64,000 nucleotides of DNA from Pseudomonas alcaligenes (GTDB taxonomy: Bacteria; Pseudomonadota; Gammaproteobacteria; Pseudomonadales; Pseudomonadaceae), in NCBI RefSeq assembly GCF_041729615.1, contig NZ_CP154874.1, positions 129,001 to 193,000 of the forward strand, read 5' to 3'. The position numbers and the translations under genes are program-made. Under the pieces are notes generated by a model. That model worked only from the letters and a program-made list of their open reading frames with translations, had not been told where the DNA came from and made no database searches. Numbering within the stretch: the first letter of the stretch is position 1; each line of letters starts with the position of its first letter. Shown in pieces: positions 10,524 through 61,563 of this stretch.

Positions 10524-10550
10524 ATGTCGGCCGGTTCCGTCGAAACTTTA
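10524..10550 (-). promoter_or_regulatory. FliA (sigma-28) promoter of flgMNZ
   Basis: On the minus strand: TAAA (10547-10550), 15 bases, GCCGACAT (10524-10531), close to TAAA-N15-GCCGATAA. It lies 40 bases before the flgM start, so FliA would drive its own inhibitor, FlgM. Confidence 0.8.
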
Positions 10551-16531: not shown

Positions 16532-16547
16532 TGGCACGCAGTTTGCT
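16532..16547 (+). promoter_or_regulatory. Sigma-54 promoter of flgFGHIJKL
   Basis: TGGCAC-GCAGT-TTGCT, a full consensus match, preceded by an A/T-rich stretch (16485-16528). It lies 55 bases upstream of flgF. Confidence 0.92.
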
Positions 16548-16601: not shown

Positions 16602-17345
16602 ATGGACAAGATGCTGTACATCTCCATGACCGGCGCCAGCCAAAACACTCTGGCCCAGCGTGCCCACGCCAACAACCTGGCGAACATCTCGACCACCGGC
16701 TTTCGCCGCGACTACGAGCAAGCGCGTTCCATGCCGGTGTTCGGCGACAGCTACCCGGCGCGGGTCTACGCCATGACCGAGCGTCCCGCCACCGACTTCA
16801 CGCCCGGCTCCCTGCAGGAGACGGGGCGCGACCTGGACGTGGCCATCGAGGGCCAGGGCTGGATCGCCGTGCAGGCGGCCGATGGCAGCGAGGCCTACGT
16901 GCGCACCGCCAGCCTGCAGATCGACGCCCTCGGCCAGCTGCGCACCGGCAACGGTTTGCCGGTGCTCGGCAATGGCGGGCCGATCGCCGTGCCGCCGGAG
17001 CAGAAGGTCGAGATCGGCCAGGACGGCACCATCAGCATTCGCGCCCTTGGCGAGGCCCCCAACGTGATGGCCGAGGTGGACCGCATCAAGCTGGTCAATC
17101 CCGACCTCAGGAGCATGGAGAAGGGCACCGATGGCCTGATCCGCGTCAAGGATGCGACCGGACCGCAGGAGCCCGATGCCACCGTACGCCTGACTTCCGG
17201 CTTCCTTGAGTCGAGCAACGTCAACGCCGTCGAGGAGATGACCGCGATCCTCTCGTTGTCCCGCCAGTTCGAGCTGCACGTGAAGATGATGCGTACCGCC
17301 GAAGACGGCGCCTCCGCCATGGCACGGGTCATGCAAATCAGCTAA
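16602..17345 (+). CDS. flgF: FlgF, rod protein
   Basis: 247 residues. N-terminal MDKMLYISMTGASQNTLAQRAHANNLANISTTGFRRDYEQ is the FlgF version of the rod motif. The C-terminal motif reads TSGFLESSNVNAVEEMTAILSLSRQFELHVKMMRTAEDGASAMARVMQIS. It forms part of the proximal rod with FlgB and FlgC. First gene of the flgFGHIJKL operon. Confidence 0.96.
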   Translation: MDKMLYISMTGASQNTLAQRAHANNLANISTTGFRRDYEQARSMPVFGDSYPARVYAMTERPATDFTPGSLQETGRDLDVAIEGQGWIAVQAADGSEAYVRTASLQIDALGQLRTGNGLPVLGNGGPIAVPPEQKVEIGQDGTISIRALGEAPNVMAEVDRIKLVNPDLRSMEKGTDGLIRVKDATGPQEPDATVRLTSGFLESSNVNAVEEMTAILSLSRQFELHVKMMRTAEDGASAMARVMQIS

Positions 17346-25086: not shown

Positions 25087-25102
25087 TGGCTTGTTAATTG
25101 CT
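25087..25102 (+). promoter_or_regulatory. Candidate sigma-54 promoter of the glycosylation island
   Basis: TGGCTT-GTTAA-TTGCT with the invariant GG and GC exactly 10 bases apart; only the last two bases of the -24 element differ from TGGCAC. It lies 41 bases before the glycosyltransferase start, the same distance as other sites here, and within A/T-rich DNA. Confidence 0.65.
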
Positions 25103-25142
25103 AACTTGCACGGATAGAGATGAAAAATTGACGGAATCAGGC

Positions 25143-27965
25143 ATGTCAGTTGATACCGAGTGGCTAGTGGAGTTCTTTCGCCGACAGGCGCGCCTTGGTT
25201 TCGAGGAGGGCGATTACACTCGTACCCGCAATTGCTGCCGGGAGTTGCTGCAACAGCTACCCAAGGATCGCGAGGCCTGGCAGTTGCTCGGCGAGGCGGC
25301 CCTGGCCAGTCGCGACAATGTGACGGCCTTGCGCGCTTTCGATCATCTGCTCGAGCTGGATCCCCAGAACGCCGACTATGCGATGCGGCTTGGCCAGGCG
25401 AGCCTGCAGGCCCAGGACTGGCCATCGGCGGTGGCCGCATTCGATCAGGTCCTGAAGCTTCAACCCGGCCACCCGGCAGCCCGCGAGGCCTTGGAGCTCA
25501 TCGGCCAACTGCAGGCCAAGCTCGATATCCTGGGACAGCTGCCTGAGGCGATACCCGGGCGCAATGACCCTTGTCCCTGTGGCAGTGGCTTGAAGTACAA
25601 GAAGTGCTGCCTGCTCAAGGGGGCGCAGCAGATTGCCCAGCAGCGCATCGAAGAAGCCTACTCTGCCGGCGAGTGGCAGCAGGTATTGGGCCTGATTGCC
25701 GATCTGGAGGTGCTTGCACCTCGCCATGAGTTGCTGCTGGCGATGGCGCGTTACCAGCTGGGGCAGCGCCAGCATGCCTATCCGCTGCTCAAGGTTGCTC
25801 GGCGTCGTTGGCCTGATGATCTCGAGGTGACGGCCGCGCTTGCCGACCTGGAATTGGATCATGATGTTGCCGCCGCGCAGCGGCTGGCCGAAGTCGTCCT
25901 GGCTGCGCAGCCGGGACAATGGCGTGCCAGCCTGGTGCTGGCTGCGGTTCATGCACGGCAGGGGCAGACGGCGGCATCCGAGGCGGCTCTGCGCGAGCTG
26001 GTACGTATCGATCCCGCCTGTGACACCGCCTGGTTGCGCTTGAGCAATTTCCTGCGCAAATCCCAGCGCGAGCAGGAAGAGGCGCAGCTGATGCGTGAAT
26101 GGACCGAGCGTTGCCCGGATAACCCAGTGGCCTGGCTCCATCGTGGCATGTCTGCGGTCCTTGCGGCGCGCGGTGATGAAGCGCGGGCTCATTTGAATCA
26201 GGCCCTTGCTCTCGATCCTCACAATCACGAGGCGCATTGCTGGATAGGGCAGTCCTACCAGAACGAACAGAATCCACATCGCGCTCTGGAACATCTGATG
26301 CTCGGTTTGCAGATCAAGCCCGATTATCAGGTGGGCTGGAATATGCTCGGCGGGGTCTACCACTCGGTGGGGCGCCAGCATGAGGCCGAGGGCTGCTTCA
26401 TGCGTGCCCTGGCGATCACTCCGGACCAGGCCGAGGCCTGGAACAACCTGGCCAATACCTATTTGGATGCACGGCTGCTCGACGAAGCCGAGCGGGTCAT
26501 GCATGTAGGCATCAGCCTGAATGGCCGAGAGCCCAACTTGTGGAACAATCTCGGCAACATTCTCAGTGCCGCCAAGCGCATCAGCGAGGCGCGCGAGGCT
26601 TACCAGAAGGCCTTGGAGGTAGCCCCGGACTACCGGCCGGTGCTGATCAATCTGGCCGGGGTCGAGGCCAACTTCGGCAATCTGGATCGGGCCATCGAGT
26701 TGCTGAGAGGAGTTCTGGATGCCGCCCAGGCGCGTACCAATACCTTCTTCTTCGCCAACTATCATGCAGACTGGAGTGGTGAGCAGGTCTTTGCTGTCTA
26801 TTGGGACATCATCGAGCGCTTCTTTCCCCAGCGTCGTTATTTCGACTACGCCAACAGCCTGCAGCCCAAGCGGCGCCTGCGTATCGGCTATATCTCACCG
26901 GACTTCCGTCATCACGTCTGCGCGCTCTTCATCGAGCCGCTGATGCGCAATCACGATCACGAGAAGGTAGAAGTATTTGCCTACTCGCTAGTGCGCCTGG
27001 AGGACCAGGTGACCGAGCGCTTCATGGGCTATGCGGATCATTGGCGGCATTGCGTCGGCCTGAGCAATGAGCTGATCGCCGAGCAGATCCGGGCCGATCA
27101 GATCGATATTCTTGTCGATCTCGCCGGGCATACCGCCAACAATGGGCTGGCCTGCCTGGCGCTCAAGCCTGCACCGGTCCAGGTCAGCTGGTGGATGGGT
27201 TTTGCCTTCGGCACCGGTCTGAAGGCGGTGGACTATTTCCTGGCCGACGAGCAGATGCTGCCGCCCGGCTGCGAGGCCTCGTTTGCCGAGCAGCTCTGGC
27301 GCATGCCTGGGCCGGCGGTGGCCTACATGCCCAATGCCATGATGCCGGAAGTATCGCCGCTGCCGGCGCTGAGCAACGGTCATATCACCTTTGGCAGCCT
27401 GACCCGCCCGGTACGCCTCAATCATCGGGTGATTCGTGTCTGGTCGGAGTTGCTCAAACGAGTGCCCAACTCGCGCCTGATCCTCGATAGCAGTGCCTTC
27501 GATGACGCTGGCCTGTGTGAGCACTATCGGCACAAGTTCGCCGAGCAGGGTATCGACCCTGCGCGCCTGGATTTTGGCTACACCGCGCCGGTCTGGGATG
27601 CGCTCGGCAAGATGGATATCGCACTGGACTGCTTCCCGCACAACTCCGGCACTACCCTCTATGAGAGCCTGTGGATGGGGCTTCCGGTGGTCACGCTGCG
27701 CCATCGGCCCTCCATGGGGCGGGTGGGCGCGCTGATCCTGCATGGCATGGGGCGTGGCGAGTGGTGTGCCGATAGCGAGGAGGAGTATCTCGACAAATTG
27801 GCGGCCCTGGCGGCCGATCCCGGTGAACTGGCGCGCATACGCGCGGGGCTGCGTGAAGAAATGCGCAACTCGCCGCTGTGCGACGGAGTCGATTTCGCTC
27901 GCCGCATGGAGCTGACTTACCAGCAGATGTGGCAGCGCTACTGCGAGCAAGGAGAACAACAATGA
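25143..27965 (+). CDS. TPR/SPINDLY-type (GT41) glycosyltransferase with SEC-C motif
   Basis: 940 residues from the ATG at 25143; an upstream in-frame TTG at 25098 lies inside the promoter. Residues about 10-130 and 165-560 are tandem TPR helices (for example [53 protein letters not shown]). Between them, at about 140-157, is a SEC-C zinc motif ([13 protein letters not shown]). Residues about 576-935 form the OGT-like catalytic part: [75 protein letters not shown]. Known members transfer a sugar to Ser/Thr of proteins. Its place upstream of fliC makes flagellin the likely acceptor. Overlaps the next gene by 4 bases. Confidence 0.88.
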
Positions 27966-28735
27966 AAGCAGTGATCCTGGCCGGCGGCCTGGGCACCCGC
28001 ATCAGCGAGGAATCGCACCTCAAGCCCAAGCCGATGATCGAGATCGGTGGCAAGCCGATTCTCTGGCACATCATGAAGCAGTACTCGGCCCACGGTATTC
28101 AGGACTTCGTCATCTGCCTGGGCTACAAGGGCTATGCGATCAAGGACTTCTTCGCCAACTACTTCCTGCACACCTCCGATGTCACCTTCGACATGCGCAA
28201 CAACCAGATGGAGGTGCATCAGAACTACAGCGAACCCTGGCGCGTGACGCTGGTGGATACCGGCGAGGACACCATGACCGGTGGCCGCTTGCGCCGTGTC
28301 GGACGCTTTCTCGAGCAGGACGAGGCCTTCTGCTTCACCTACGGCGACGGCGTATCCGACCTGGACATCGGCGCCCTGGTTGACTTCCACAAGCGGCACG
28401 GCAAGCACGCCACCGTTACCGCCGTGCAGCCGCCTGGCCGCTATGGTGCCCTGGCTCGCGAGGGCGATCAGGTCACCGGGTTCGTCGAGAAGCCACGCGG
28501 CGACGGCGGTTGGATCAACGGTGGTTTCTTCGTGCTGTCACCCAAGGTATTGCCCTATATCGCCGAGGACTCCACCACCTGGGAGGCCGAACCGTTGGGC
28601 CAGCTGGCCAGCGAGGGGCAGCTGATGGCCTTCCAGCATGAAGGTTTCTGGCACCCGATGGATACCCTGCGCGACAAGAACTACCTGGAACAGCTGTGGC
28701 AGAGTGGAGAGGCACCTTGGAAGCAGTGGAACTGA
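27962..28735 (+). CDS. rfbF: Glucose-1-phosphate cytidylyltransferase
   Basis: 257 residues from the ATG at 27962, overlapping the upstream stop as ATGA, so translation is probably coupled. The nucleotidyltransferase signature [39 protein letters not shown] is that of RfbF, and [42 protein letters not shown] follow. It makes CDP-glucose from CTP and glucose-1-phosphate, the first committed step of the CDP-sugar pathway. RfbF length is normal. Confidence 0.96.
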
Positions 28736-29799
28736 GTCGCGAGTTCTGGCACGGCAAGCGGGTCCTGCTGACCGGTCACACCGGCTTCAAGGGCGGCTGG
28801 CTGGCGCTCTGGCTGCAGAGCTGGGGTGCCCAAGTGACCGGATTCGCCCTCGATCCCTCCACCGATCCCAGTCTGTTCGAGCTGGCGCGGGTAGGTGAGG
28901 GCATCGACAGCCGCATCGGCGACCTGCGTGATCTGCCGGCTTTGCTGGCGCTGGTGGCCGAGGTCAAGCCCGAGATCGTTCTGCATCTGGCCGCTCAGCC
29001 GTTGGTGCGCGAGGGCTACCGCGATCCGCTGGGCACCTATGCCAGCAATGTAATGGGCACCCTGCATCTGCTTGAGGCGCTGCGCCAGGTCTGCGGTGTC
29101 AGGGCCTGCGTGGTGGTGACCACCGACAAGGTCTATGCCAATAACGAATGGGCCTGGCCCTACCGGGAGAACGAGCCACTCGGCGGTCACGACCCCTACA
29201 GCAGCAGCAAGGCCTGTTGCGAGTTGCTGGCGCAGTCATTTGCTGCCTCCTATTTTCCGGCGTCCCGCCATGCTGAGCACGGGTTGGCCCTGGCCACCGC
29301 TCGGGCCGGCAATGTGCTGGGCGGTGGCGACTTCTCGGCCGATCGCCTGGTGCCGGACGTTTTGGCTGCCTGGACGCGTGGCGAGCCGGTGACCCTGCGT
29401 TACCCGCAGGCCGTACGCCCCTGGCAGCATGCCCTGGAGCCGCTGGCCGGTTACCTGCAGCTGGCCCAGGGGCTCTACGAGCAGGGGCCGGTCGTAGCCG
29501 GCGCCTGGAACTTCGGCCCCGCCGACAGCGACACCTGCAATGTTGGCGAGGTGGTGGCGCGTCTGGCCGCGCGCTGGCCGCAGGCGCCGGGTCTGAAGAT
29601 CGAACCCAGCGAGCTGCACGAGGCCGGCCTGCTGCGCCTGGACAGCAGTCGTGCGCGCCAGCTGCTCGGCTGGCAGCCGCGCTGGGGGCTGGACGACTGC
29701 CTGGCGCAGACCCTCGACTGGCACCTGGCCTGGCAGCGTGGCGACGACATGCGCGCCGTGACCCTGGCCCAGCTGGCCGGCTACTGGGGGCAGGCATGA
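28717..29799 (+). CDS. rfbG: CDP-glucose 4,6-dehydratase
   Basis: 360 residues from the TTG at 28717 ([16 protein letters not shown]), just after a GGAGAGG box; GTG codons at 28696 and 28726 are alternatives. It overlaps rfbF by 19 bases. SDR features: the NAD-binding [26 protein letters not shown], and the catalytic YSSSK. The WHGKRV and [10 protein letters not shown] motifs are those of RfbG. It converts CDP-glucose to CDP-4-dehydro-6-deoxyglucose. Confidence 0.94.
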
Positions 29800-30356
29800 G
29801 CGAGCTCCAGCTGATCGAGCTGCCGCTGCCGGGGCTGTCCGCCCTGCAGCATCGCGTGCATCAGGACGAGCGCGGTCGTTTCGCCCGCCTGTATTGCGAA
29901 GGCAGCCTGGAGTTGTTCGGCCAGCCTTTCCATGTGCGGCAGATCAACCAGTCGCTGACCCGCGAACGCGGCACCGTGCGCGGTCTGCACTTCCAGTACC
30001 CGCCGCATGCCGAGAGCAAGCTGATCACCTGCCTGCGTGGTGTGGTGTGGGATGTGGCGGTGGACGTACGACAGGGCTCGCCGACCTTCCTGCGCTGGCA
30101 CGCCGAGCGGCTGGAGGCCGGTGACGGCCGCAGCTTGCTGTTGCCGCCAGGTTTCGCCCACGGCTTCCAGGCTCTCAGTGACGATGCCGAGCTGCTCTAC
30201 CTGCACAGCGCCGATTACACCCCGGGCCACGAAGGCGGCTTGTCCGTTGGCGACCCACGTCTGGCCATCGACTGGCCGCTGCCATTCAAGAACCTGTCGG
30301 CCCGCGATGTCGGCCATCCGCTGTTGGATGAGAGTTTCCAAGGAGTCCGCTTATGA
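29796..30356 (+). CDS. NDP-4-keto-6-deoxysugar 3,5-epimerase family (RfbC-like)
   Basis: 186 residues; starts with a 4-base ATGA overlap with rfbG. The cupin fold of RfbC is clear: HQDERGRFARLYC, QINQSLTRERGTVRGLHFQYPP with the catalytic histidine, KLITCLRGVVWDVAVDVRQGSPTF, PPGFAHGFQAL and the C-terminal IDWPLP. In this context the substrate should be the CDP-linked 4-keto-6-deoxy sugar from RfbG, epimerised at C3 and/or C5. The exact outcome cannot be read. Confidence 0.9.
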   Translation: MSELQLIELPLPGLSALQHRVHQDERGRFARLYCEGSLELFGQPFHVRQINQSLTRERGTVRGLHFQYPPHAESKLITCLRGVVWDVAVDVRQGSPTFLRWHAERLEAGDGRSLLLPPGFAHGFQALSDDAELLYLHSADYTPGHEGGLSVGDPRLAIDWPLPFKNLSARDVGHPLLDESFQGVRL

Positions 30357-31585
30357 ACTGCCGTGGCTGCGGTGCGCACCTGCACCTGCCGTTGATCGAC
30401 CTGGGCACGGCGCCGCCGTCCAACGCTTATGTGAGCGCCGCGCAACTCGACCAGGCCGAGCAGTGGGTGCCGCTAAGGGTGCAGGTATGTGACTCGTGCT
30501 GGCTGGTGCAGACCGAGGACTACCGCGCCGCCGACAGCCTCTTCGATGCCGACTATGCCTACTTCAGCTCCTTCTCCAGCAGCTGGCTGGCCCATGCCGA
30601 GCGCTACGTCGCCAGCATGACCGAGCGCTTCGGCCTGAATGCGCAGAGTCGGGTAGTAGAAATCGCCGCCAATGACGGCTACCTGCTGCAGTATGTGGCG
30701 GGGCGCGGCATGCCCTGTCTGGGTATCGAGCCCACCGCCAGCACGGCGCGTGCGGCGAGGGAGAAGGGCCTGGAGATTCGCGAGCTGTTCTTCGGCGAGG
30801 CCGTTGGTCGTCAACTGGCGGAGGAGGGCTGGAGCGCCGATCTGATGGCGGCCAACAATGTGTTGGCCCACGTGCCGGACATCAACGACTTCCTCAAGGG
30901 CTTCGCTGCGCTGCTGAAGCCGACTGGCGTGGCCACCTTCGAGTTTCCCCATCTGCTGCGGCTGATGGCCGAACACCAGTTCGATACTCTCTATCATGAG
31001 CACTATTCCTATCTGTCGCTGACCGCAGTGCAGACACTCTGTGAGCGCAACGGTCTGGCCGTGTTCGATGTCGAGGAGCTGCCGACCCATGGCGGTTCGC
31101 TGCGGGTCTTCGTGCAGCGTACCGGGGGCGCGCGCCCGGTTTCTGCCGCCGTCGGCGAGTTGCTGGCGCGCGAGGAAGCGAGCGGGGTGAAGACCGTCGC
31201 CTATTACGAGAGCCTGGCGCCGGCCGCCGAGCGCATCAAGCACGAGCTGCTGCGCTTCCTGCTCAAGGCCAAGGCCGAGGGCAAGAAGGTGGTCGGCTAC
31301 GGCGCGGCGGCCAAGGGCAACACCCTGCTCAACTACGCCGGGGTGCGTGGCGACCTACTGGCCTGGGTGGCCGATGCCAACCCGCACAAGCAGGGCAAGT
31401 TCCTGCCGGGCAGCCGCATTCCTATCGTCGAACCGGCGCGCATCGCCATCGAGAAACCGGACTATGTGCTGGTGCTGCCGTGGAACCTGCTGAGTGAGGT
31501 GATGGAGCAGCAGGCCGTGGTCAAGACCTGGGGTGGCCGCTTCGTGGTTGCCGTGCCAGGGCTGCAAGAGTTTGCCGCTCGTTAA
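30353..31585 (+). CDS. Sugar C-methyltransferase (TylC3/NovU-type)
   Basis: 410 residues; 4-base overlap with the epimerase gene. An N-terminal zinc-binding domain has C3, C6, C46 and C49 (CRGC and CDSC). The SAM-binding core starts VVEIAANDGYLLQYVAGRGMPCLGIEPT and contains FEFPHLLRLM and DTLYHEHYSYLSL, a hallmark of the 3-C-methyltransferases. The C-terminal domain has GYGAAAKGNTLLNYAGV and PGSRIPI. Known relatives add a methyl to carbon 3 of 4-keto sugars such as in mycarose. Here the likely substrate is a CDP-4-keto-6-deoxy sugar, giving a branched sugar. Confidence 0.88.
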   Translation: MNCRGCGAHLHLPLIDLGTAPPSNAYVSAAQLDQAEQWVPLRVQVCDSCWLVQTEDYRAADSLFDADYAYFSSFSSSWLAHAERYVASMTERFGLNAQSRVVEIAANDGYLLQYVAGRGMPCLGIEPTASTARAAREKGLEIRELFFGEAVGRQLAEEGWSADLMAANNVLAHVPDINDFLKGFAALLKPTGVATFEFPHLLRLMAEHQFDTLYHEHYSYLSLTAVQTLCERNGLAVFDVEELPTHGGSLRVFVQRTGGARPVSAAVGELLAREEASGVKTVAYYESLAPAAERIKHELLRFLLKAKAEGKKVVGYGAAAKGNTLLNYAGVRGDLLAWVADANPHKQGKFLPGSRIPIVEPARIAIEKPDYVLVLPWNLLSEVMEQQAVVKTWGGRFVVAVPGLQEFAAR

Positions 31586-31600
31586 TCCTCGGGGGGGATC

Positions 31601-32347
31601 ATGGCTAACTTCATTACGGAAGCGTTTTACGGGGTGCGAGATCAGGAGCAATTTGTCGACGGCATTGCCCGTGCTCTAAACACCTTGCAGCCAGATGGGA
31701 TTTTTGTTGCCGATAACCTGATTACCTGGAATCGGAACATGGGCTTTCTGCAGGACGAGAAATTCGTTTCTGCAATCAACAGCAACTCCCCGGATATTCA
31801 GGAGCAGTCGCTGATATGGCGCTTGCATACATTGTGCTGGGCCGCCAGGCAGTGCAGTCGGCTGGATGGGGATTTTGTCGAGGCCGGGGTTTACAAGGGT
31901 TTCACGGTTAAAGTCATCTGCGATTACTTGGGCTTCAACTCTCTGGAGCGTGATTACTATTTATACGACGTATTTTGTCACTCCCCGGAGATGAAACATC
32001 ATGCCCTGAGTGCGCATGGCGAGCATCTGTACGCGCAGGTTTGCGAGCGTTTCAGGGATTATCCCAGGGTGAAGGTCGTGCAGGGGTTGGTGCCCGAATC
32101 TTTTGCCAAGGGCGTGCCCGAGAGGATCGCCTTCATGCACATCGATATGAACAACGCGGATGCAGAGGTTGCGGTTCTGGATCGCTTCTATGAGCGTCTG
32201 GTACCCGGCGGAATGATAGTTTTCGATGACTATGGCTGGTTGTGGTATCAGGCCCAGCAGCATGCCGAGGATGCGTGGCTCAACCGACATCATGGTGAGC
32301 GCATCCTGGAGTTGCCAACCGGGCAAGGCCTGCTGGTCAAGCTCTGA
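31601..32347 (+). CDS. TylF/MycF-type methyltransferase
   Basis: 248 residues. The SAM motif DFVEAGVYKGFTVKVICDYL and the TylF hallmarks AFMHIDMNNADAEVAVLDRFYERLVPGGMIVFDDYG are visible, so an O-methyltransferase acting on a sugar hydroxyl is most likely. The DNA is clearly poorer in G+C than its neighbours (31921-31980 is 24/60 G+C), with AT-ending codons such as TTT, ATT and TAT, which suggests separate acquisition. It sits 15 bases after the C-methyltransferase gene. Confidence 0.82.
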   Translation: MANFITEAFYGVRDQEQFVDGIARALNTLQPDGIFVADNLITWNRNMGFLQDEKFVSAINSNSPDIQEQSLIWRLHTLCWAARQCSRLDGDFVEAGVYKGFTVKVICDYLGFNSLERDYYLYDVFCHSPEMKHHALSAHGEHLYAQVCERFRDYPRVKVVQGLVPESFAKGVPERIAFMHIDMNNADAEVAVLDRFYERLVPGGMIVFDDYGWLWYQAQQHAEDAWLNRHHGERILELPTGQGLLVKL

Positions 32348-32349
32348 AT

Positions 32350-33270
32350 ATGCCAAGTGCTCGCGAGTGTGTTCTGGTTACAGGGGCGGGGGGCTTCGTT
32401 GGCCGTCATGTGCTGGGTCAATTGCTTGATTCGGGCTGGGATGTGCATGCCGTCTATCGTCCCGGGGGGCCGTCGGCTGAGGTGCAGGGCAAGGCGCAAG
32501 TTCATTCGGTGGACTTGTTGCTACCCGGAGCCGCCGATACTTTGCTCGGAGCCGTAAGGCCGCAACGCCTGTTGCACCTGGCCTGGTGTGCGAAGCCTGG
32601 CGAGTACTGGACCTCGTCGGAAAACCTTGGCTGGGTGCGGGCCACTCTGGAGTTGCTCGAATCCTTCCGGATTCATGGTGGCGAGCAGGCGGTGCTGGTG
32701 GGCACCTGTGCCGAATATGACTGGAGCGGCAATGGCATCTGCCAGGAGTATGCGACTCCTCTGCGTCCGGCGACTCCTTACGGCCGCTGCAAGAATGCGA
32801 CTCGTGAGTTGGCCGAGCTATTCGGCCAGCTACATGGCATACCGATCGCTTGGGCGCGGATCTTCCACGCCTATGGCCCCTTTGAGGCTCAAGGTCGGCT
32901 GGTACCAGCGGTGCTGGCGGCCTTGCTCAAGGGGGAGCCGGCGCGTTGCTCTCATGGCGAACAGCTGCGCGATCTGCTTCATGTGGCGGATGTTGCCGCG
33001 GCGCTGGTGCAGTTGATGAACGTGAAGGCCGATGGCGCCTTCAACATTGGCGGCGGTCAGCCGATACGCCTGCGCGAGGTCATCGAGTACCTGGCCAGGC
33101 AGCTGAACGCAGAACACCTGCTGCAATTCGGGGCTATACCGGTTGCGGCCAACGATCCGCCGTTGCTGATCGCCGATAACCAGCGCTTGCTGGCGACCGG
33201 CTGGCGGCCACGGTTCGATCTGCACAGTGGTTTGGATGATGTCCTCGCCTGGTGGCGCGGGCGAATTTGA
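32350..33270 (+). CDS. NAD(P)-dependent sugar epimerase/reductase (SDR family)
   Basis: 306 residues, 2 bases after the TylF-type gene. Extended SDR layout: dinucleotide motif GAGGFVG at 12-18, HLAW at about 76-79, VGTCAEYDW, catalytic Y144 and K148 (YGRCK), RIFHAYGPFE and the late FNIGGGQPIRLREV. The family includes 4-ketoreductases, 4-epimerases and dehydratases of NDP-sugars. After RfbG and the C-methyltransferase, reduction of the C4 keto group is the most economical role, but this is inference. Confidence 0.85.
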   Translation: MPSARECVLVTGAGGFVGRHVLGQLLDSGWDVHAVYRPGGPSAEVQGKAQVHSVDLLLPGAADTLLGAVRPQRLLHLAWCAKPGEYWTSSENLGWVRATLELLESFRIHGGEQAVLVGTCAEYDWSGNGICQEYATPLRPATPYGRCKNATRELAELFGQLHGIPIAWARIFHAYGPFEAQGRLVPAVLAALLKGEPARCSHGEQLRDLLHVADVAAALVQLMNVKADGAFNIGGGQPIRLREVIEYLARQLNAEHLLQFGAIPVAANDPPLLIADNQRLLATGWRPRFDLHSGLDDVLAWWRGRI

Positions 33271-33290
33271 TACTCGGAAAGGAGCAGGAA

Positions 33291-34055
33291 GTGAAACTGA
33301 CAGTCGATACTGATAACAAGAAACTGGTCCTGGAAGAGGGCGGTGCCGTCCGCGAGCTGGATCTGTACACCGACGAGTCTTTCGAGATTCTCTCCCAGCA
33401 GTGGGTAAACCTCGGCTGGAACCAGAAGTACCCCTATACCTTCTCCTGGATGGGCCGCCCGGTGATCCAGCTGCCGGAAGACATGATCCGCATCCAGGAA
33501 GTGATCTACAGTGTCAAGCCGGACGTGATAGTCGAGACCGGTGTCGCCCACGGCGGCTCACTCATCTATTACGCCAGCCTGTTCAAGGCCATGGGCAAGG
33601 GGCGGGTGATCGGCGTGGACATCGAGATCCGTCCGCACAACCGCAAGGCCATCGAGGAACACGAGCTGTTCAGCTACCTGACCCTGATCGAGGGCAGTTC
33701 GGTGGCCGACGAGGTGGTCGCCCAGGTCAAGTCGCTGATCAAGCCCGGCGAGACTGTGCTGGTGATCCTCGATTCCAACCATAGCTATGCTCATGTGACC
33801 GAAGAGCTGCGCCTGTATTCGCCGCTGGTGACCAAGGGCTCGTACATCGTCTCCACCGATGGGGTGATGAAGGAGGTCAAGGATGTACCGCGTGCCGGCA
33901 AGGACTGGGGGACCGACAACCCGTCCAATGCAGCCATCGATTTCGCCAAGGCCAACCCGCAGTTCGTCATCGAGCAGCCGTCCTGGCCGTTCAACGAGAG
34001 TGGTCTCAGCAAGAACATCACCCACTGGCCCGATGCCTGGTTGAAGCGTATCTAG
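33291..34055 (+). CDS. CmcI-family (cephalosporin hydroxylase/rhamnosyl O-methyltransferase) protein
   Basis: 254 residues from the GTG at 33291, 6 bases after AAAGGAG; the in-frame GTG at 33252 would overlap the previous gene without a ribosome site. The core has IVETGVAHGGSLIYYASL, VIGVDIEIRPHNRKAIEEH, LVILDSNHSYAHVTEELRLYSPLV and YIVSTDGVMKEV, all of the CmcI family. Despite the name, many members are SAM-dependent O-methyltransferases on sugars, and that role suits this island. Last gene of the island before the fliC leader. Confidence 0.83.
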   Translation: MKLTVDTDNKKLVLEEGGAVRELDLYTDESFEILSQQWVNLGWNQKYPYTFSWMGRPVIQLPEDMIRIQEVIYSVKPDVIVETGVAHGGSLIYYASLFKAMGKGRVIGVDIEIRPHNRKAIEEHELFSYLTLIEGSSVADEVVAQVKSLIKPGETVLVILDSNHSYAHVTEELRLYSPLVTKGSYIVSTDGVMKEVKDVPRAGKDWGTDNPSNAAIDFAKANPQFVIEQPSWPFNESGLSKNITHWPDAWLKRI

Positions 34056-34197: not shown

Positions 34198-34224
34198 TAA
34201 AGTTGCGTCGGAAAGCGCCGATAC
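34198..34224 (+). promoter_or_regulatory. FliA (sigma-28) promoter of fliC
   Basis: TAAA (34198-34201), 15 bases, GCCGATAC (34217-34224): 7 of 8 at the -10. A second TAAAG lies exactly 10 bases further upstream (34188-34192). The 5' leader to the fliC start is about 90 bases. Confidence 0.9.
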
Positions 34225-34323: not shown

Positions 34324-35910
34324 ATGGCCCTGACAGTCAACACAAACGTCGCTTCGCTGAACACTCAGCGCAACCTCAACACTTCGTCCAAGGGTCTGGA
34401 TACTTCCCTCCAGCGCCTGTCCACCGGTTTCCGCATCAACAGCGCCAAAGACGATGCGGCTGGCCTGCAGATTTCCAACCGTCTGACCAGCCAGATCAAC
34501 GGTCTGAACGTTGCCACCCGCAACGCCAACGACGGTATCTCCCTGTCGCAGACCGCTGAAGGCGCCCTGCAGCAGTCCACCGGCATCCTGCAGCGTATGC
34601 GTGATCTGGCTCTGCAATCCGCCAACGGCTCCAACGGCGCCAGCGAACGTGCAGCACTGCAGTCCGAAGTGGCTCAGCTGCAACAGGAACTGAACCGTAT
34701 CGCCGACACCACCAGCTTCGGCGGTCGCAAGATCCTCGACGGTACCTTCGGCTCCCAGAGCTTCCAGGTAGGTGCCAACGCCTTCGAAACCATCAGTGTC
34801 TCGATTGGTGCTGCCGGTGCCTCGCGCATCGGTGCCAGCCGCTTCAACAGCAGCGTGGCCGACTCCACCAACTCTCAGGATGGTATCGCTGCCTCCGCTG
34901 TGGCTGACTTCGCGGCCTACACCACCGCTTATGGTTACGCCTCCTCGCCGGCCACCAGTGCTGGCCTGACCATCTCCGGCAAGCTGGGCGATGCCTCCGT
35001 TGCCCTCAATAGTGGCAGCTCCGCTCGTGAACTGGCCGAAGCCGTCAACGGCGTGTCCGGCTCCACTGGCGTAACCGCCACTGCCCGCACCTCGGCTCGC
35101 CTGGAGAACTTCACCGGTACCACCACCGATCCGGGCACCATCAGCTTCACCCTCTACGGTTCGAACAACTCCGAGGAAAGCGATGGTGTAGCGATCTCCG
35201 CCAGCATCTCCGACTGGAGCGATCTGTCTGCCCTGGCCGATGAGATCAACAAGGAAACCGGTCGTACCGGCATATCCGCCAAGATCAACAACGACGGCAC
35301 CCTGGAAATGACCAGCGAGCGCGGTGACGACATCGTCATCACCGAGTGGGCTGCTCAGCTTGAGGATGGTACTGCTGTCGGTGCAGACCTGCAGAGCCTG
35401 TCCTTCAATGGCGATAACGGTGTCGATGACGCCGAAGATGCCAGCGATCTGGTCGGGGCAGTAGCCACTCTGGCTGCCGGTGCGGGCGCCGTCTCGGTCG
35501 GTCAGGTACGCTTCGAGTCCGCCGATGCCTTCCAGGTTGAGAACTTCGACACCATCGACGGTGGCATCCAGGCTGCCAGCGTGTTCAGTACCCTGGAGGC
35601 TGTCGACAGCGTCGACATCAGCACCTCCATCGGCGCACAGAACTCTCTGGGCATCATCAGTGCCGCGATCTCCAACATCGACAGCCAGCGTGCTCAGCTC
35701 GGTGCCGTGCAGAACCGCTTCGAGAACACCATCTCGAACCTGCAGAACATCTCCGAGAACGCCTCCGCTGCTCGTAGCCGGATCCGCGACACCGACTTCG
35801 CTGCCGAAACCTCGGAGCTGACCAAGAATCAGATCCTGCAGCAGGCTGGTACCGCAATCCTGGCCCAGGCCAATCAGCTGCCGCAGGCTGTACTCAGCCT
35901 GCTCGGCTAA
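34324..35910 (+). CDS. fliC: FliC, flagellin
   Basis: 528 residues from the ATG at 34324, 9 bases after GGAGG; the TTG at 34309 is rejected. The N-terminal D0/D1 (about 1-170) begins [18 protein letters not shown] and contains the TLR5-type [14 protein letters not shown]. The C-terminal D1/D0 (about 440-528) ends [19 protein letters not shown]. The central part (about 175-420) is a variable Ser/Thr/Ala-rich outer domain with no cysteine, a plausible site for O-glycans. The region matching the flg22 epitope (30-51) has Phe at 36. Exported and polymerised into the filament. Confidence 0.98.
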
Positions 35911-38609: not shown

Positions 38610-38636
38610 TAAAGCCGCGCCCGGGATTGCCGATAC
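38610..38636 (+). promoter_or_regulatory. FliA (sigma-28) promoter of the second fliS
   Basis: TAAA (38610-38613), 15 bases, GCCGATAC (38629-38636), with the same GCTAAAGCCGC and GCCGATACAA flanks as the fliC promoter region. It lies 36 bases before the second fliS. Confidence 0.85.
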
Positions 38637-39566: not shown

Positions 39567-41042
<1,476 letters not shown>

Positions 41043-42419: not shown

Positions 42420-43856
42420 ATGACTGCCAAGGTTCTGCTGGTCGAAGACGACCGCGCGCTGCGCGAGGCCCTTGCCGACACGCTGATGATCGGCGGGCAT
42501 GACTTCCGCGCCGTGGAATGTGCCGAGGATGCGCTTGCCGCGCTGGGCGAGGAGGCCTTCGGCCTGGTGGTCAGCGACGTCAACATGCCCGGCATGGACG
42601 GTCACCAGTTGCTTGGCCTGATCCGCGCACGTTATCCGCAATTGCCGGTGCTGCTGATGACCGCCTACGGCGCCGTGGAGCGCGCGGTGGAGGCCATGCG
42701 TCAGGGCGCCGCCGATTACCTGGTCAAGCCGTTCGAGCCGCGCACCCTGCTGGAGCTGGTGGCACGCCATGCGCTCGGCCGCATCAGTGCCGGCGAAGGC
42801 GAGGGCCCGGTGGCCTGCGAGCCGGCCAGCCAGCAGCTGCTGGAGCTGGCCGCGCGGGTGGCCAGGAGCGACTCCACCGTGCTGATCTCCGGCGAGTCCG
42901 GCACCGGCAAGGAGGTACTGGCGCGCTATATCCACCAGCAGTCGACCCGTGCCGACGGTCCCTTCATCGCCATCAACTGCGCGGCGATTCCCGACAACAT
43001 GCTCGAGGCCACCCTGTTCGGCCACGAGAAGGGCGCCTTCACCGGTGCCATCGCCGCCCAGCCGGGCAAGTTCGAGCTGGCCGATGGCGGTACCATCCTC
43101 CTCGACGAAATCTCCGAGATGCCGCTGAGCCTGCAGGCCAAGCTCCTGCGCGTGCTGCAGGAACGCGAGGTGGAGCGGGTCGGCGCGCGCAAGCCGATCA
43201 GCCTGGACATCCGAGTGCTGGCCACCACCAACCGCGACCTGGCTGGCGAAGTGGCCGCCGGGCGCTTCCGCGAGGATCTCTACTATCGCCTGTCGGTGTT
43301 CCCGCTGGCCTGGCGCGCCCTGCGCGAGCGTCCCGCCGACATTCTGCCGCTGGCCGAGCGCCTGCTGGCCAAGCACGTCAAAAAAATGAACCATGCCGCC
43401 GTGCAGCTCTCGCCGCAGGCTCGCGCGGCCCTGGTGGCGCATTCCTGGCCGGGCAACGTGCGCGAGCTGGACAACGCCATCCAGCGTGCCCTGATCCTGC
43501 AGCAGGGCGGGCTGATCCAGCCCCATGACCTGTGCCTGACCGCGCCCATCGGCATGGCGCCGATGCCCGCCGCGCCAGCCGTGAGCCTGGTGGTCAGCAA
43601 CCCGCTTGCCGGCGCGCCGCTGGCCGGTGGCGCGCCGGCGAGTGCAGAGCCCGGCGTTGCCGAGGGCGCTGGCGCCCTGGGCGAGGACCTGCGCCGCCGC
43701 GAGTTCCAGATGATCATCGACACCCTGCGTGCCGAGCGTGGCCGGCGCAAGGAAGCCGCCGAGCGCCTTGGCATCAGCCCGCGCACCCTGCGCTACAAGC
43801 TGGCGCAGATGCGCGATGCCGGCATGGACGTCGAGGCCTATCTCTACGCCAGCTGA
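42420..43856 (+). CDS. fleR: FleR, sigma-54-dependent response regulator
   Basis: 478 residues. The receiver domain (about 1-120) has phospho-acceptor D53 (VSDVNMPGMDG) and K103 region LVKPFEP. The AAA+ domain has GESGTGKE at 158-165 and GAFTGA at 205-210. A Pro/Ala-rich linker (about 380-415) precedes the C-terminal Fis-type HTH (RRKEAAERLGISPRTLRYKLAQMRDAG). Phosphorylated FleR activates the class III sigma-54 promoters, such as flgB and flgF. It ends the fleSR operon. Confidence 0.96.
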   Translation: MTAKVLLVEDDRALREALADTLMIGGHDFRAVECAEDALAALGEEAFGLVVSDVNMPGMDGHQLLGLIRARYPQLPVLLMTAYGAVERAVEAMRQGAADYLVKPFEPRTLLELVARHALGRISAGEGEGPVACEPASQQLLELAARVARSDSTVLISGESGTGKEVLARYIHQQSTRADGPFIAINCAAIPDNMLEATLFGHEKGAFTGAIAAQPGKFELADGGTILLDEISEMPLSLQAKLLRVLQEREVERVGARKPISLDIRVLATTNRDLAGEVAAGRFREDLYYRLSVFPLAWRALRERPADILPLAERLLAKHVKKMNHAAVQLSPQARAALVAHSWPGNVRELDNAIQRALILQQGGLIQPHDLCLTAPIGMAPMPAAPAVSLVVSNPLAGAPLAGGAPASAEPGVAEGAGALGEDLRRREFQMIIDTLRAERGRRKEAAERLGISPRTLRYKLAQMRDAGMDVEAYLYAS

Positions 43857-43967: not shown

Positions 43968-44027
43968 GATACCTCTGCAAAAGCCGCGCAGCGTCAAAAA
44001 ACCGCGGCAGCTGGAGGAAGAAAGGTC

Positions 44028-59377: not shown

Positions 59378-59433
59378 ATTACCCCTGCACGGCGCCTTTC
59401 GCGTCAAAAGATTGAATGGGCTGGGGATAACAA

Positions 59434-61563
59434 GTGGCAGTGGATCGTGCGCAAATCATCGGGGACGTACGCAGCAACCTGGCGGGGTTGCGCCATGGCA
59501 ATCTGGGTATTCCGCTGCTGCTGCTGGTCATGCTCGCCATGGTCATGCTGCCGATCCCGCCGTTCCTCCTCGACGTGCTGTTCACCTTCAGCATCGCCCT
59601 GTCCATCGTGGTCCTGCTGGTCGCCATCTACTCGCTGAGGCCGCTGGACTTCGCCGTCTTCCCCACCGTGCTGCTGGCCGCGACCCTGCTGCGCCTGGCG
59701 CTGAACGTCGCCTCCACCCGCGTGGTGCTGCTGCACGGCCAGGAGGGGCATGACGCCGCGGGCAAGGTGATCCAGGCCTTCGGCGAGGTGGTGATCGGCG
59801 GCAACTACGTGGTCGGCGCCGTGGTGTTCGCCATCCTGATGATCATCAACTTCGTGGTGGTCACCAAGGGTGCAGGGCGCATTTCCGAGGTGAGCGCGCG
59901 TTTCACCCTGGACGCCATGCCCGGCAAGCAGATGGCCATCGACGCCGACCTCAATGCCGGCCTGATCGACCAGGCCGAGGCCAAGCGGCGCCGTGCCGAG
60001 GTGGCCCAGGAGGCCGACTTCTACGGTTCGATGGACGGTGCCTCGAAGTTCGTCCGCGGCGACGCCGTGGCCGGCCTGCTGATTCTCTTCATCAACCTCA
60101 TCGGCGGCATTGCCATCGGCGTGCTGCAGCACGACCTGGCCTTTGCCGAGGCCGGGCGCATCTACACCCTGCTGACCATCGGCGACGGCCTGGTGGCGCA
60201 GATCCCCTCGCTGCTGCTGTCCACCGCCGCCGCCATCATGGTCACCCGGGTCTCCACTTCCGAAGATATGGGGGCCCAGGTCAGCCGACAGATGTTCGCC
60301 TCGCCCAAGGCCCTGGCCGTGTCGGCAGCGATCATGATCACCATGGGCCTGGTGCCGGGCATGCCGCACGTACCTTTCATCGGTCTCGGCCTGATCGCGG
60401 CCGGCGCGGCCTACTGGATTGCCAACAAGCAGCGCAAGGTCAAGGAGGAGGAGGTCAAGGAGGTCAAGCGCCAGCAGGAGCTGCTGCCGGCGCAGAAGGC
60501 CCAGGAGGTCAAGGAGCTGGGCTGGGACGACGTCACCCCGGTGGACATGGTAGGCCTGGAGGTCGGCTACCGCCTGATCCCGCTGGTGGATCGCAACCAG
60601 GGGGGGCAGTTGCTGGCGCGGATCAAGGGCGTGCGCAAGAAGCTGTCGCAGGAGATGGGCTTCCTGATGCCGTCGGTACATATCCGCGACAACCTCGACC
60701 TGTTGCCCAATGCCTATCGCCTGACCCTGATGGGCGTCAGCGTGGCCGAGGCCGAGGTGTATCCGGAGCGCGAACTGGCGATCAACCCCGGCCAGGTGTT
60801 CGGCACCCTCAACGGCATCGCCGCCAAGGATCCGGCGTTCGGCCTGGAAGCGGTGTGGATCGACCCGAGCCAGCGCGACCAGGCGCAGTCGCTCGGCTAC
60901 ACGGTGGTGGATGCCAGCACCGTGGTCGCCACCCACCTCAACCAGGTCCTGCACAAGCATGCCCATGAGCTGATCGGCCATGAGGAGGTGCAGCAGTTGC
61001 TGCAGCTGCTGGCCAAGACCTCGCCGAAGCTGGCCGAGGAGCTGGTGCCGGGCATGGTCTCGCTGTCGACCCTGCTCAAGGTGCTGCAGGCGCTGCTGCA
61101 GGAGCAGGTGCCGGTGCGCGATATCCGCAGCATCGCCGAGGCCATCTCCAATGTCGCCGGCAAGAGTCAAGATCCCGCCGCGATGGTCGCCGCGGTTCGC
61201 GTCGCACTGGCCCGTGCAATCGTGCAAAGCATTGTGGGACTAGAGCCGGAGCTGCCTGTGATCACTCTGGAGCCCAGGTTGGAACAGTTATTGCTCAATA
61301 GCCTGCAGAAGGCCGGTCAGGGCTCTGAGGATGGCATCCTCCTCGAACCCGGAATGGCCGAGAAGCTGCAACGCTCCCTGGTGGAAGCGGCGCAGCGCCA
61401 GGAAATGCTCGGCAAGCCGGTGATCCTGCTGGTGGCCGGCCCGGTCCGGGCGATGCTGTCGCGATTCGCGCGGCTCGCCGTACCCAACATGCATGTACTG
61501 GCCTACCAGGAAATACCGGACAACAAGCAGGTCACGATCGTCGCCACGGTCGGCCAGAACTGA
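59434..61563 (+). CDS. flhA: FlhA, export-gate protein
   Basis: 709 residues from a GTG at 59434 (VAVDRAQIIGDVRSNLAG). Eight membrane segments in the first ~320 residues, with the FHIPEP-family signature around ATLLRLALNVASTRVVLLHGQEG and GRISEVSARFTLDAMPGKQMAIDADLNAG. A charged linker (KQRKVKEEEVKEVKRQQELL) joins the C-terminal cytoplasmic domain that forms a nine-fold ring and binds late chaperones. It uses the proton-motive force for export. Confidence 0.98.
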   Translation: MAVDRAQIIGDVRSNLAGLRHGNLGIPLLLLVMLAMVMLPIPPFLLDVLFTFSIALSIVVLLVAIYSLRPLDFAVFPTVLLAATLLRLALNVASTRVVLLHGQEGHDAAGKVIQAFGEVVIGGNYVVGAVVFAILMIINFVVVTKGAGRISEVSARFTLDAMPGKQMAIDADLNAGLIDQAEAKRRRAEVAQEADFYGSMDGASKFVRGDAVAGLLILFINLIGGIAIGVLQHDLAFAEAGRIYTLLTIGDGLVAQIPSLLLSTAAAIMVTRVSTSEDMGAQVSRQMFASPKALAVSAAIMITMGLVPGMPHVPFIGLGLIAAGAAYWIANKQRKVKEEEVKEVKRQQELLPAQKAQEVKELGWDDVTPVDMVGLEVGYRLIPLVDRNQGGQLLARIKGVRKKLSQEMGFLMPSVHIRDNLDLLPNAYRLTLMGVSVAEAEVYPERELAINPGQVFGTLNGIAAKDPAFGLEAVWIDPSQRDQAQSLGYTVVDASTVVATHLNQVLHKHAHELIGHEEVQQLLQLLAKTSPKLAEELVPGMVSLSTLLKVLQALLQEQVPVRDIRSIAEAISNVAGKSQDPAAMVAAVRVALARAIVQSIVGLEPELPVITLEPRLEQLLLNSLQKAGQGSEDGILLEPGMAEKLQRSLVEAAQRQEMLGKPVILLVAGPVRAMLSRFARLAVPNMHVLAYQEIPDNKQVTIVATVGQN

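Follow-up and report, generated by a model that had tools for sequence, protein, structure and literature searches.

In Pseudomonas aeruginosa and Pseudomonas syringae, the flagellin glycosylation islands are part of the flagellar cluster and adjoin the gene for flagellin, and their sugars and transferases differ from those of the island described here. Our literature search found no report of RpoN-controlled flagellin glycosylation in Pseudomonas. The accessible portion of a 2021 review on Pseudomonas flagella gives no transcription class for glycosylation genes (PMC8036289). According to the accessible text of PMC8657755, which cites Yu et al. 2018, the flagellin glycosylation island GigX1-GigX10 of Xanthomonas oryzae is under the control of RpoN2/FleQ, with flagellin under FliA. 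In Helicobacter and Campylobacter, flagellin glycosylation genes are RpoN-dependent (PMC3930126; flaB-jhp0106, PMC5368276). In these bacteria, the activator is FlgR, the sugar is pseudaminic acid, and the putative transferase is of the Maf type. In Caulobacter, flagellin is modified by FlmG, and the glycosylation pathway genes are switched on before the flagellin chaperone FlaF. Control lies with CtrA and SciP, the sugar is again pseudaminic acid, and sigma-54 control is not reported in the accessible part of the study (PMC7591256). Glycan-before-flagellin timing is already documented in other bacteria (PMC8657755, PMC7591256).

The locus analysed here originates from Pseudomonas alcaligenes. 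The window, i.e., the whole 64-kb stretch of DNA that was analysed, contains the greater part of the polar flagellar cluster of a 4.09 Mb genome. A glycosyltransferase gene and sugar genes sit within this cluster, between the end of flgL (25014) and the flagellin gene fliC (34324..35910, PF00669/PF00700). They form an island of eight tightly packed genes (25143-34055) with no intergenic gap of more than 16 bases; all features are on the + strand unless stated otherwise. The first gene (25143..27965) encodes a 940-residue glycosyltransferase with TPR repeats, an SEC-C motif, and an OGT/SPINDLY-like GT41 domain (Pfam Glyco_transf_41, 8.7e-37). The closest solved structures are SPINDLY (6e-98) and the O-GlcNAc transferase OGT (2e-66), and the nearest named relative by this protein is P. 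guryensis with 89% identity. It is followed by genes for the glucose-1-phosphate cytidylyltransferase RfbF (27962..28735, TIGR02623 above cut-off), the CDP-glucose 4,6-dehydratase RfbG (28696..29799, start uncertain, TIGR02622 above cut-off), an RmlC-like sugar 3,5-epimerase (29796..30356, PF00908 2e-55), a sugar C-methyltransferase (30353..31585, PF08484 3e-62 and PF08421), a TylF-like O-methyltransferase (31601..32347, PF05711), an NAD-dependent sugar epimerase/reductase (32350..33270, PF01370 2e-40), and an RMNT/CmcI-type O-methyltransferase (33252..34055, start uncertain, PF04989 2e-73). The predicted pathway is that of a CDP-glucose-derived deoxysugar carrying C- and O-methylations, with flagellin as the presumed acceptor.

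The island is probably a flagellin glycosylation operon under sigma-54 control, of the kind known from Xanthomonas and Helicobacter, and the switch ahead of it is very probably a genuine sigma-54 promoter of the type that activates rod and hook genes. As in the X. oryzae GigX island, the glycosylation genes would be controlled by sigma-54 and perhaps FleQ (class II) and flagellin by FliA (class III). The two differ in genus and, as far as the accessible text describes it, apparently in gene set, and the assignment is experimental in X. oryzae, whereas it is drawn here from sequence alone. With Helicobacter and Campylobacter the locus would share the use of sigma-54 for glycosylation enzymes alongside hook-stage genes, and with Caulobacter FlmG the combination of TPR repeats and a glycosyltransferase in one protein.

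The putative sigma-54 (-24/-12) promoter element TGGCTTGTTAATTGCT is located at 25087..25102. A previous sequence-only reading had pointed out its exact GG-N10-GC spacing, which is borne out by GG at 25088-25089 and GC at 25100-25101 with ten bases between them. The element is separated by 40 bases from the in-frame ATG (25143) of the first island gene. Compared with TGGCACG-N4-TTGCW, it matches 10 of 12 positions, the misses being A-C to T-T at positions 5-6. If the C of the GC is taken as -12, the transcription start predicted from spacing only falls at 25113, 12 bases past this C and at the same position as previously suggested. A longer frame for the glycosyltransferase, with a TTG start at 25098, is not credible and would begin inside the -12 box.

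We propose, with a probability of roughly 0.82, that this element is a sigma-54 promoter opened by a flagellar activator, more likely FleQ than FleR, driving the eight glycan genes with the early/middle flagellar genes and ahead of the FliA-driven fliC. An RpoN-dependent transcript would start near 25113 and cover all eight genes from 25143 to 34055. The promoter would be opened by a flagellar enhancer-binding protein, and FleQ, for which the leader immediately past the start may offer a binding place, is likelier than FleR. Glycan synthesis and transfer would come on with the early/middle flagellar genes, while fliC would be held back for its own FliA promoter. We infer promoter activity, activator choice, operon structure, and timing from the DNA itself. 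Flagellin presumably receives its glycan inside the cytoplasm, prior to export, so the enzymes must already be in place once FliA releases flagellin synthesis. With a conserved sigma-54 promoter ahead of the glycan operon and FliA driving fliC, this order would have a simple explanation in Pseudomonas, and the glycan coat would be linked to FleQ and through it perhaps to c-di-GMP.

The match could also be fortuitous or reflect a decayed site, with a sigma-70 promoter elsewhere driving the island. The element has two consensus misses, and the window contains 13 sites with 10/12 matches where approximately 8 are expected, several of them within genes. Under a first-order Markov model of both strands of the window, sites with at least 10/12 matches are expected 9.25 times. 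Within the 128-bp gap between flgL and the island, on the other hand, only about 0.008 such sites are expected on a single strand, and the element is kept in five relatives. No sigma-70-like promoter was found on the + strand between flgL and the island, and the best match to the FliA-type TAAAGTTT-N11-GCCGATAA ahead of the first island gene reached 9/16 in the 450 bp after flgL. Neither promoter type having been found on the + strand, both were rejected as drivers of the island. Chance or decay is considered very improbable.

A position weight matrix was built from 25 distinct sites, derived from 29 congeneric flgF promoters (including that of this genome) together with nine promoters of flagellar genes in the window, with 25087 excluded. 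In a scan of the approximately 128,000 positions of the window, 25087 ranked second with 20.6 bits, after flgF with 20.8 bits; this rank is somewhat flattering, as the training set consists mostly of flgF orthologues, some of which contain the same AATTGCT stretch. Ten of the top eleven hits are 25087 and the nine expected promoters of flgA, flgB, flgF, fliD, fleS, fliE, fliK, fliL, and flhA. The scope of the matrix scan was the 64-kb window, while genome-wide occurrence was assessed by pattern counts.

The conservation of the element was analysed in five relatives, which share 64-89% identity with the island in their glycosyltransferase. Of the 16 positions of the element, they retain 16, 16, 15, 14, and 15, respectively. 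In the same order, the gap upstream of it shows identities of 0.64, 0.61, 0.68, 0.40, and 0.18, and the leader downstream of it 0.85, 0.85, 0.78, 0.65, and 0.57. The -24/-12 element is the best-conserved stretch within an otherwise diverging gap between flgL and the island. The gene order flgL, transferase, rfbF, rfbG, rfbC, and C-methyltransferase is found in four of the five relatives, and a FliA box precedes fliC in all three relatives whose loci reach this gene. In the genome G027, which encodes a 50%-identical transferase orthologue, the sigma-54 site is absent. The genome of P. alcaligenes encodes a single RpoN (PF04552, 1e-69) as well as FleQ and FleR, which, together with the conservation in five relatives, argues for the sigma-54-type promoter that had been suggested ahead of the island.

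To place the element in the genus, the regions downstream of flgL were surveyed in 110 congeneric genomes, including this one. A matrix score of at least 13 bits was reached on the coding strand in nine of them and on the opposite strand in none (0/110). All nine strong sites precede glycan genes, and at least four kinds of first gene are represented: the transferase described here, a glucose-1-phosphate cytidylyltransferase, a glycerol-phosphate-cytidylyltransferase-like gene, and an aminotransferase-like gene, the last three being named by eye from their N-termini. In seven genomes fliC directly follows flgL. None of these (0/7) has a sigma-54 site, while six have a FliA box (12-14 of 16); the scan of 450 bases does not reach fliC in the seventh. 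Each arrangement thus yields the expected promoter type, as the fliC-first genomes carry FliA boxes without a sigma-54 site. In most of the remaining genomes, the genes after flgL resemble those for glycosyltransferases or ketoacyl synthases (judged by eye), and neither box is present. The sigma-54 wiring of the island is a lineage feature and not a genus-wide rule. A tentative and rather doubtful extension is that in pseudomonads a sigma-54 promoter has been gained or retained time and again by unrelated glycan cassettes located between flgL and fliC. Several of them would have a helix-phased FleQ-like leader box and cassette-free genomes only a FliA box, so that a timing rule may select workable insertions.

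The island may instead be mainly read through from the flgF-flgL operon, with 25087 adding little. The flgFGHIJKL operon ends just before the island and begins at a sigma-54 promoter (16532..16547) that matches the consensus at 12 of 12 positions and is kept in 29 of 29 readable relatives. No terminator-like structure was seen between flgL and the island, and shuffled sequences fold as well as the 60 bases immediately downstream of flgL (z -0.68, compared with a mean of -2.2 across the 110 genomes). A dedicated island promoter is therefore not strictly necessary. As the operon starts at a 12/12 sigma-54 site, read-through would still be RpoN-dependent via the flgF promoter (FleR class), and RpoN dependence alone cannot separate the two sigma-54-driven routes. 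However, read-through alone leaves unexplained why the element is the most conserved part of a diverging gap. Both routes could coexist, and read-through as the main route is judged unlikely. Approximately half of the 110 genomes have a well-folding stretch directly after flgL (z below -2). Ten checked genomes with a sigma-54-like site after flgL lack such a stretch.

The dedicated promoter proposed here would require an activator, and both candidates named in the sequence-only reading are encoded in the window. The genes fleQ (39567..41042), with a GAFTGA motif, and fleR (42420..43856), a response regulator, are open reading frames with matches to the NtrC family of sigma-54 activators and were named by position and motif. 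In the leader, a FleQ-like half-site GATGAAAAATTGAC (25119..25132) matches the P. aeruginosa FleQ consensus at 9 of 13 positions. It is located at +6, with a best-in-250-bp chance of 0.16 and p 0.07 versus shuffles, and the +5/+6 register was noticed post hoc. Genus-wide, flhA and fliE, both known FleQ targets, have a GTCA-N6-TGAC-like box 15-16 bases past their predicted sigma-54 start (59403-59416 and 43993-44006 in the window). This position agrees with the report of Jyot et al. (2002), as cited in the accessible text of PMC6120874, that FleQ binds downstream of the RpoN site. For the strain studied in PMC6120874, the authors considered the published FleQ motif unreliable. In the fliD and flgA regions of the window, the GTCA-N6-TGAC-like box is weaker.

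Better FleQ-like boxes are found in other sigma-54 islands, namely GTCAGAGAATTGAC at +5 (G166) and GTCAATGAATTGTC at +15 (G012 and G008), and matches at +5, +14, or +15 are seen in another three islands. The scoring compared the flhA/fliE/fliL with the flgB/flgF families and gave low FleQ-box scores; flgF and flgB are imperfect as controls, with flgF of many relatives also scoring at +16. Furthermore, the leader stretch TTGACGG holds a constant distance to the ATG, and its conservation may reflect a ribosome-binding feature. The half-site just past the predicted start is suggestive only in favouring FleQ over FleR. The leader also contains a three-codon frame, ATG AAA AAT TGA, at 25120-25131 (+). 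This frame is the same in two relatives, and two others have short ATG...TGA frames that stop at the same TGA.

A sigma-54 element does not reveal its activator, and the promoter could be real yet respond to a regulator from outside the flagellar cascade, in which case the timing claim fails. Elsewhere in the genome, the 16-mer TGGCTTGTTAATTGCT has a single further exact copy, at 1044177-1044192 on the - strand, upstream of a non-flagellar gene. The copy at 25087, in contrast, lies between flgL and fliC and is accompanied by the FleQ-like leader half-site, with similar boxes in some other islands. A non-flagellar activator is considered quite improbable. The second copy has neither flanks nor function in common with the first. 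It is located approximately 150 bases upstream of the gene for a 590-residue protein with a signal-peptide-like start and follows an acyl-CoA-ligase-like gene.

The final element of the proposed order is the promoter of fliC. Flagellin had been predicted to be under a separate FliA-type promoter, and a clear FliA (sigma-28) box TAAAGTTG-N11-GCCGATAC indeed precedes fliC at 34198..34224, which supports this assignment. It has 0 mismatches to TAAAGTT-N12-GCCGATA and is kept in three relatives, while a search allowing up to 3 mismatches is expected to return 0.79 matches by chance. Additional FliA-like boxes are located at 10525-10550 (-) and 38610-38635 (+), with one and two mismatches, respectively. 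By position, the former may serve flgM/flgN and the latter the gene after the fliS-like gene.

Two additional sigma-54-like sites were observed within flagellar genes of the window. The sequence TGGCACGGGTCATGCA at 17320-17335 (+), at the 3' end of flgF and before flgG, matches 11 of 12 consensus positions, with ATGC replacing TTGC. The sequence TGGAACAGTTATTGCT at 61280-61295 (+) lies inside flhA approximately 280 bases before flhF, ranks fifth in the matrix scan of the window, and is a candidate internal sigma-54 promoter for flhF.
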